Shown here: positions 32,259 through 34,349 of the stretch, one piece after another
How positions within the stretch are numbered: the first letter of the stretch is position 1
Layout: each line of letters starts with the position of its first letter
From: Norana najaformis
Taxonomy: Eukaryota > Annelida > Clitellata > Crassiclitellata > Hormogastridae
Reading direction: 5' to 3'
Length of the DNA: 64,000 bases
Assembly (NCBI GenBank): GCA_964023275.1
Contig: OZ029919.1
Span: 9,440,202-9,504,201 of the forward strand
The notes under the pieces: model-generated
Database searches by the model: none
What the model saw: only the letters and a program-made list of their open reading frames with translations
What the model was told of the DNA's origin: nothing
Translations under genes and position numbers: made by a program

Positions 32259-34349
32259 CTGCGAGGGTTCTGACAAGAGCCCCGTCTGCCCCGGTTATCT
32301 CTCCCGTTCAGTGCGGCCGAGTGCAGAGCTCGTCCAGTTGTCCCTCCTCCCGAAAACCATTCCAGGCGTCAATACCTGTTCCACCTCTACCTCTTCCAGC
32401 CCTCATCCTACTCCTCCCTGTCCGTCGTCTGTTTGTAAGAAGACCTGTCCTTTTGCAGATCCCTGCAGCCCTTGCTATCGGACTGCGCATGAGCGCCGCA
32501 ATCCCCCTCCTCGATTCGATCCTTGCGCCGCCTTCCGCTGCGATCCCTGCTACCCAGCCGTCAACTGCGCCCCTAATCTCCCTTTCCCGATTCTCGCTCC
32601 TTGGCGTCCTGCTCCACCCGCCGTTCGCCTCTCGTCCCATGCCCAGCTCCCGTCGAAGCCCTGCCTGCCGCCCGGCTCCGTCCCTTGCAACCCCTGCCCT
32701 CTCCCGTTGGCCTGCGAGAGACCGTGTCCGGCGCGCTCCCTGCCTGTCCCGCCCAGAGGAGGCACCCTCAGCGTCAAGAAGCCGGTCATCTACTCGGAGA
32801 GACGCCCCTGCAACCCGGCTCCTCCGATCCCCGTCTATACGTGCAGCACGATTGGAACACGCAAAACAAACGACCGAATCAGCACATACTACAACTACTC
32901 CGGTGAGACATTGACGTCTTCCGTTCCAATCTAGACGGACAGCGGCTGTTCGATCGCAAACTGAAATACACGGCAGAGAAGGACACACCATCATCATCAC
33001 CACCACCACCTCCAGCTATCATCACCACCTCGACTAACACCACACTTGCATTACCATCATCATCATCATACCATCACCACCATCTATCACTATCACCACC
33101 ACCACCATCGTCATCATCACAATCACCATCATTATCACCACCACCACTAGCACCATCACTTCCATCTTCCATCACCATCATCACCACCACCACCACCACC
33201 ATCACCATAACCACCATCGTCGTCACCGCCACCACCACCACCATATTCATAACGACCAGCAAGAACAACCAGAAGCAACCTGTTCCTCTCAGCAGAGTTG
33301 CATGCGGTTTCGACTACGCGCTGCCCTCCTCTTCGACCCTTCACGTGATCTTCTCAAGGCGGCTATTAGCCTGAAGTTTAGCAAACGTAGGTAGGTGTCA
33401 ACCGTCTCGTCTAGTGTACCTGGGCCGTCCACAAGTTCTTACATACCCGCATTTATTTGCACGTCGTTGTCAAAATGCTTTCCTTTGAATACACAGGTTA
33501 TCTCGACGTGCCAGGGTCATCAAACGCCAAGTGTTCGCCAGTGATACCTTGTCATCTCTATTCAAACTACGTATATGCCGGATGTGCTCGAGTTAGTAAA
33601 ACAATAGATCAAACTCAATCAGAAAGTACAGTGAGTGAGCGAGTGAGCTAATCAGTCAGTCAGTCAGTCAGTCAGTCAGTCAGTCAGTCAGTCAGTCAGT
33701 CAGTCAGTCAGTCAGTCAGTCAGTCAGTCAGTCAGTCAGTCAGTCAGTCAGTCAGTCAGTCAGTCAGTCAGTCAGTCTAGTCAGTCAGTCAGAACATATA
33801 TATATGCATGTATGCATGTATGTATGTATGTAGCCTATGTATGAATGTATCCATGCATGCATGCATGCATGCATGCATGTATGTATGTATGTATGTATGT
33901 ATGTATGTATGTATGCATGCATGTATGTATGTATGTATGTATGTATGTATGTATGTATGTATGTATGTATGTATGTATGTATGTATGTATGTATGTATGT
34001 ATATTCCAAGACACTTAATATGGTGCATTATAAGTACATCACAAAAGCGCTGCAATAATGTTAGGCCTATGGTGTTATTGCTCATGTTGTAGTTGTAGCT
34101 GCTGCTGATGATAATAACGATGAAGACGACGACGACAATGATGTTGACAATTATTATTATTTTGATGATGATGATGATGATGATGATGATGATTATGATG
34201 ATGATGATGATGATGATGATGATGATGATGATGATGATGATGATGATGATGATGATGATGATGATGTACGTGAACTGTTTCAGAAACCAATTGTGTGGAA
34301 GACGGCCACTGTTGTTCCACCGCAGCAAAACGCACCAGTCAACAGCTAA
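32259..34349 (+). CDS. Cys/Pro-rich protein, three exons, 5' end uncertain (novel)
   Basis: I do not recognise a family. The main exon (about 32,259-32,902) is strongly GC-rich in an AT-rich neighbourhood. It encodes repeated PC/CP motifs: VCKKTCPFADPCSPCY, FRCDPCYP, VPCNPCPLPLAC, ERPCPARS, RRPCNPAPPIPVYTC; it ends at G|GTGAGA. A second exon (33,497-33,630; acceptor ACACAG, donor ACA|GTGAGT) joins in phase 1 to give YYNYSG|YLDVPGSS and more cysteines (KCSPVIPC, YAGC). A third (34,284-34,349; acceptor TTTCAG) joins in phase 0 and reads KPIVWKTATVVPPQQNAPVNS then stop. AATAAA follows at 34,481. About 280 residues and 21 cysteines are visible. Introns 1 and 2 contain large microsatellites. The 5' boundary is a guess (acceptor ATTAG at 32,258); an in-frame repetitive ATG-rich stretch runs back to 32,098. 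CxPC repeats recall outer-dense-fibre-like sperm proteins or matrix proteins, but this is only resemblance. Confidence 0.55.
32985..33250. repeat. (CAC/CAT)n trinucleotide tract
   Basis: Dense ATC and ACC triplets in the first intron of the Cys/Pro-rich gene. Confidence 0.9.
33652..33792. repeat. (TCAG)n microsatellite
   Basis: About 33 TCAG units with one interruption near 33,777. It starts just after the donor of the second exon of the Cys/Pro-rich gene. Confidence 0.97.
33796..34003. repeat. (ATGT)n/(ATGC)n microsatellite
   Basis: Long runs of ATGT with blocks of GCAT. Confidence 0.97.
34161..34266. repeat. (GAT)n microsatellite
   Basis: About 33 GAT triplets ending 17 nt before the acceptor of the last exon of the Cys/Pro-rich gene. 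Confidence 0.97.

Follow-up and report, generated by a model that had tools for sequence, protein, structure and literature searches.

A probable orphan gene for a Cys/Pro-rich protein, apparently single copy in its genome, with complementary microsatellites in its introns

Among the described proteins that are rich in cysteine and proline, the outer dense fibre protein 1 (ODF1) of the mammalian sperm tail is an intracellular, disulfide-linked structural protein with C-x-P and PCxPC motifs, in which the C-x-P repeats are arranged in tandem and a small-heat-shock-like (Hsp20-like) domain is present. The protein SMCP is small, Cys/Pro-rich, of low complexity and contains CC pairs, and in both of these mammalian proteins the cysteines are cross-linked by disulfides in compacting cells. 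The Mst(3)CGP sperm-tail proteins of Drosophila are also Cys/Pro-rich and are encoded by short genes with CGP repeats. Lastly, the keratin-associated and SPRR-type proteins are cross-linked structural proteins that are rich in Cys and/or Pro, with CC pairs or CC-x-P motifs occurring in the keratin-associated proteins.

The locus examined here lies within a 64-kb stretch of DNA, referred to below as the window (C7:9440202-9504201), and its features are summarized in Table 1, where the introns are numbered from the main exon onward. An earlier note on this DNA had proposed three exons that join in matching phases, followed by a stop codon and an AATAAA signal. This structure was recovered in our analysis, as the main exon, exon 2 (ending at 33591 or 33630) and the last coding exon can be read together free of stops up to the terminal TAA, with the polyadenylation signal placed downstream. 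For exon 2, splice-site scores make the donor at 33631 (6.8) more likely than the earlier 33592 (2.5), the latter being weak and equalled by 20% of the GT sites, and the reading frame is kept by both. The frame is likewise kept by two acceptors of the last exon, of which 34326 scores 6.8 vs. 3.8 for the repeat-adjacent 34284. The acceptors at 34284 and 32259 (score 4.4) are ordinary, being equalled by 20 and 16% of the AG sites, respectively, and the donors at 31467 and 32903 are strong, with about 0.4 equally good sites per kb; the corresponding figure for the acceptor at 33497 is 1.8 per kb. All of these scores are based upon textbook weights from general knowledge. Internal exons matching 33497-33630 in quality, by thresholds chosen once this exon was known, were found in 41 of the 1000 shuffles; of 566 real blocks of the window, 18 contained such an exon. 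As comparable internal exons thus arise by chance, the matching phases provide modest evidence for the gene, and the splice joins taken by themselves weak evidence.

Table 1. Features of the Cys/Pro-rich gene and its introns in the window (a slash marks the exon end at a donor)
Feature	Position	Strand	Remarks
TATA box (TATAAA)	31331-31336	+	exact motif; 116 nt ahead of proposed start codon
Proposed first coding exon (MAASDF + 2 nt)	31447-31466	+	donor CAT/GTGAGT
GAT tract, first intron (between proposed first exon and main exon)	32145-32170	+	degenerate GAT/GAC at ~32100-32245
Main exon	32259-32902	+	GC-rich; 19 Cys; PCxP motifs; donor CCG/GTGAGA
CAT/CAC-rich stretch, intron 1	32989-33243	+	imperfect
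Exon 2	33497-33630	+	acceptor score 7.6; donor ACA/GTGAGT 6.8; short form to 33591 (donor 2.5)
TGAG then TCAG repeats, intron 2	33631-33792	+	from exon 2 donor; TRF array 33652-33792
ATGT array, intron 2	33799-34002	+	
GAT array, intron 2	34163-34266	+	complementary to intron 1 CAT stretch
Last coding exon	34284-34349	+	TAA 34347-34349; in-frame alternative acceptor 34326
AATAAA polyadenylation signal	34481-34486	+	further AATAAA at 34593

An upstream first exon, which was missing from the earlier model, is probably provided by the TATA box at 31331, the ATG at 31447 and the donor at 31467. The ATG is present in a good context, and the 20-nt piece that it opens joins in phase with the exon at 32259 to give MAASDFICEGSDK (MAASDFI-CEGSDK), a start that has no hydrophobic leader. 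The donor of this piece has a score of 8.9, which is equalled by 0.6% of the GT sites on the + strand of the window. The combination of a TATA box, RNNATGG and an in-frame GTRAGT, a pattern that was defined after the 31447 case had been seen, is found twice in the 64 kb when both strands are considered, and it is in phase 2, the phase required by the exon at 32259, only at 31447. The other place (46881-47022, + strand) may be a first exon or due to chance. Within the proposed first intron there is also one copy of a 62-nt repeat (31750-31811), of which an inverted copy with 79% identity is present downstream of the gene (35373-35433).

The description of the main exon as a GC island in AT-rich DNA was found to be accurate, its GC content being 0.624 as against values of at most 0.447 in 62 of the 64 1-kb bins of the window; the GC contents of exon 2 and the last exon are 0.484 and 0.50, respectively. 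Among 1000 dinucleotide shuffles, one kept the frame of the main exon open. A single open frame out of the six was seen in 17 of the 1000 and two or more in none of them, and the real main exon has two, since the +2 frame (219 aa) is likewise open across it. An open frame of 235 aa on the minus strand (32308-33015) also overlaps this exon. The heterogeneity between codon positions was 20.2, compared with a shuffle mean of 6.0, and it was equalled by 4 of 2000 shuffles. Additionally, A is found at the third position in 18 of the 214 codons, and the codon choice favors GAG for Glu (5/5), GTC for Val (9/12), CTC for Leu (10/14) and TGC for Cys (14/19). The position bias is modest when compared with that of real 240-nt blocks taken from the window, as the blocks starting at 32260, 32380, 32500, 32620, and 32740 were equalled by 5.5, 2.3, 54.8, 19.2, and 5.4% of them, respectively. 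No clear codon bias was seen in exons 2 and 3. By way of comparison, no such third-position bias is present in two of the window's three trypsin exons, and the remaining one leans to C (33/87, with A in 18/87). At the protein level, PC occurs 11 times vs. a mean of 4.0 (equalled by 11 of 10000 shuffles) and PCxP five times vs. 0.7 (3 of 10000), these being among 12 patterns that were tried, and in the main exon 12 cysteines touch a proline vs. a mean of 7.2 (equalled by 2.0% of the shuffles). Based upon these results, we consider it fairly likely that the locus is coding.

Depending upon the splice choice, and with the proposed first exon included, the encoded protein is 273-287 aa long with 22 Cys and 49-52 Pro. 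The short form of exon 2 leads to 274 aa and the long form to 287 aa (22 Cys, 52 Pro), with exon 2 contributing three Cys within 45 aa. The earlier count of about 21 cysteines, mostly in PC or CP pairs, is in good agreement with this, as 13 of the 22 adjoin a proline. The statement that the protein resembles no nameable family was also upheld by the searches. For the 274-aa protein no match up to an E value of 10 was obtained in Pfam, either with the whole sequence or with its C-terminal parts, or among the PDB sequences (phmmer), and the C-terminal 95 aa gave one PDB match with an E value of 1.1. AlphaFold2, run without an alignment on the main exon alone, yielded a mean pLDDT of 42.9, with 185 of 214 residues below 50 and a hairpin at the end of the exon in which 19 residues have a pLDDT of at least 90; for the exon 2 reading no residue exceeded 50. 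The low-confidence model of the main exon gave 23 Foldseek matches with E values up to 10, none of them at 0.001. The protein is probably disordered for the most part. Among the papers listed by a literature search, none was recognized as dealing with this protein, nothing in the 64-kb window reached the Rfam gathering score, and neither of the two matches from a pattern scan of IMG/VR was confirmed.

Judging from sequence searches of its 608 Mb genome (17 contigs), the gene is apparently single copy. A search with the 287-aa protein, in which nine candidates were scored, gave six matches, three of which correspond to the gene's own exons and three are weak (E values 0.045, 0.24, and 3.3); exon 2 matched only itself. 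The match with an E value of 0.045 (C4:28036587-28036817; L012 1504-1668, minus strand) has no partner exon within 9.9 kb and was treated as chance. In this match 14 of 31 residues, from CNPAPP to YYNYS, are identical by eye, and the similarity falls on the end of the main exon, i.e., the part with the high AlphaFold2 pLDDT values. The strand opposite to it reads as a plausible exon, and that reading has no Pfam or PDB match. Two other candidate paralogues (L013 and L014) were rejected, the alignments running over Ser/Pro-rich stretches with a stop inside each. When the genome was searched at the DNA level with 32259-34349, 261 matches were obtained, and among the matches listed, all those beyond the query's own place lie in or beside CAT or GAT arrays. 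Long TTAGGG telomere arrays are present at three of the six contig ends that were examined, which speaks against an origin from most groups of arthropods.

The window also contains, upstream of the Cys/Pro-rich gene, an array of trypsin-type serine protease stretches (PF00089, C-terminal part) in the + frames 4529-4981, 13204-13827, and 27556-28035 (E values 8.6e-14, 1.2e-15, and 5.2e-13, respectively), of which that at 13204-13827 has PDB relatives. Membership of the Cys/Pro-rich gene in this array was rejected, because the last trypsin frame ends at 28038 and no Pfam trypsin domain is present in the gene. Downstream, an open frame of 569 aa (36055-37761, + strand), which has a second copy of about 52% identity split over two frames at ~7270-8915 (minus strand), probably represents a DNA transposon, as inverted repeats lie on either side of it, with 18 nt matching exactly (35682-35699 and 37889-37906) and about 50 nt showing 78% identity. 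The only Pfam match of this frame was weak, gag-like and under the cut-off. As a raw count, the 64 kb contain 21 copies of the palindrome TAGGCCTA.

The earlier note had further described the gene as built around microsatellites, with both introns consisting largely of them. For intron 2 (33631-34283) this is correct, as repeats account for 470 of its 653 nt (72%). However, "largely" is generous for intron 1, where they fill 255 of 594 nt (43%), and no arrays were found inside the predicted exons, so that the description fits the introns only. The GAT array of intron 2 does end 17 nt ahead of the last exon, at 34266, but the suggestion that repeat length could influence splicing through this gap is weakened by the better in-frame acceptor that lies 42 nt downstream at 34326. 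Pairing between two of the intron arrays may provide another route from the repeats to splicing. In the window, words of the GATGATGA or CATCATCA type form clusters of more than 16 nt only at 32145-32170, 32989-33183 (CAT), and 34163-34266, with six further places having 8-16 nt of such words.

According to the reading that makes most of these arrays, the gene is real and its splicing is set by the CAT stretch of intron 1 pairing with the GAT array of intron 2, with exon 2 looped out and either skipped or circularised, and array length tuning two C-termini. The predicted CAT-GAT duplex has an energy of -118.3 kcal/mol, which is well beyond the values obtained when the GAT side was shuffled 100 times by mononucleotides (mean -52.9, best -76.3) and those of 275 other blocks of the window (best -66.0), and the expected number of CAT-GAT pairs is 89.1 in the segment 32903-34283 and 91.0 in 31361-34349. 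Such pairing is predicted to place exon 2 in a loop. When exon 2 is skipped the frame shifts and stays open to a stop at 34403-34405, ahead of the AATAAA, giving a protein with 22 Cys, although one that is without the cysteines of exon 2. Looping-out of an exon through intron pairing is a mechanism for which a review is available (PMC7404189). However, CAT and GAT arrays are common in the genome and may flank an exon in opposite orientations by chance; hence, the arrangement was not counted as functional evidence. The predicted fold also ignores proteins and the order of transcription, and the CAT stretch has a competing partner in the GAT tract of the first intron, which forms 77 pairs with it when intron 2 is left out of the folding and six in the whole of 31361-34349. 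We therefore regard this reading as very improbable, and the chance is slimmer still for the proposal that the two arrays clamp exon 2 of an orphan gene such that the length of the repeats would serve as a heritable control of skipping or of the output of circular RNA. Such a splicing switch is attractive, with support that goes no further than the predicted pairing.

Two other readings concern the product and the gene itself. The gene could be real and its protein secreted, if translation started within the GAT tract, at the ATG at 32110 or a later one, and the residues preceding CEGSDK, which are rich in Met, Ile and Leu, served as a signal peptide derived from a decayed microsatellite; such a product would be rich in disulfides and would belong to a matrix, the cuticle or a gland. 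From 32077 onward the main frame is free of stops, through the GAT tract and with hydrophobic, Met-rich residues, and the segments MKALVLVMIITTMMI and PMLMIMMFVLTLISC have mean hydrophobicities of 2.24 and 2.29. However, an ATG/GAT repeat in that frame yields hydrophobicity anyway, other 15-residue windows of the leader go down to 1.4, and the upstream TATA box, start codon and strong donor supply a first exon with the phase that is needed, which makes secretion unlikely. That there is no gene at all, the locus being either a dead remnant or a GC- and pyrimidine-rich patch in which chance has produced a long frame along with acceptable splice sites, is also doubtful, if slightly less so. The two frames open across the main exon, the like-quality internal exons in real blocks, the modest position bias against such blocks and the lack of a convincing second copy in the genome are all consistent with it, but the shuffle results for the open frame and the codon positions, the avoidance of A at third positions, the excess of protein-level motifs and the in-phase promoter and first exon argue against it.

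An orphan gene at this locus is probably real. Given the observed gene anatomy and coding signals, the expression, splice choice, location and function that we infer would be as follows. Transcription would start from the TATA promoter and the RNA would be spliced from the tiny first coding exon to the GC-rich main exon, exon 2 and the last exon, ending by means of the AATAAA at 34481. The leaderless, mostly disordered product of 273-287 aa would carry PCxP(C) motifs in which neighboring prolines keep the spaced cysteines extended, and these cysteines would become cross-linked by disulfides as the cell compacts, in sperm accessory structures or in a cornified cell. Taken as a whole, this explanation, viz. 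an apparently single-copy gene of four exons on the + strand (~31.36 to 34.5 kb, the proposed first exon included) for an intracellular, disulfide-cross-linked Cys/Pro-rich structural protein, is put forward tentatively, with slightly less than an even chance of being correct in all its parts. At present the gene has the standing of a prediction and nothing out of the ordinary, for a lineage-restricted-looking Cys/Pro-rich protein known from the sequence of one genome. If it is transcribed, an animal genome gains an apparently single-copy orphan gene of no recognized family and also a natural case of complementary microsatellites flanking an exon, in which a possible effect of ordinary variation in repeat length on exon inclusion would be directly testable.

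In comparison with the known systems, the gene product is like the keratin-associated and SPRR-type proteins in being structural, as proposed here, and rich in Cys and/or Pro, but it contains no CC or CC-x-P and no gene family was found in its own genome. It shares a Cys/Pro-rich composition and a short gene with Mst(3)CGP, although CGP is absent from it, and it is small, Cys/Pro-rich and of low complexity like SMCP, but again with no CC pairs. With ODF1 it shares C-x-P and PCxPC motifs, and presumably also an intracellular, disulfide-linked structure. However, it has no Pfam domain, and so none that is Hsp20-like, and its eight C-x-P motifs (a number equalled by 265 of 10000 shuffles), three of them C-x-P-C, are scattered rather than forming one tandem block. 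As none of the defining features compared was found in it, the gene product is assigned to none of ODF1, SMCP, Mst(3)CGP, and the keratin-associated proteins. Nevertheless, its composition, the spacing of its PCxP motifs and its leaderless start fit a cross-linking role that may be analogous to that of ODF1 and SMCP.
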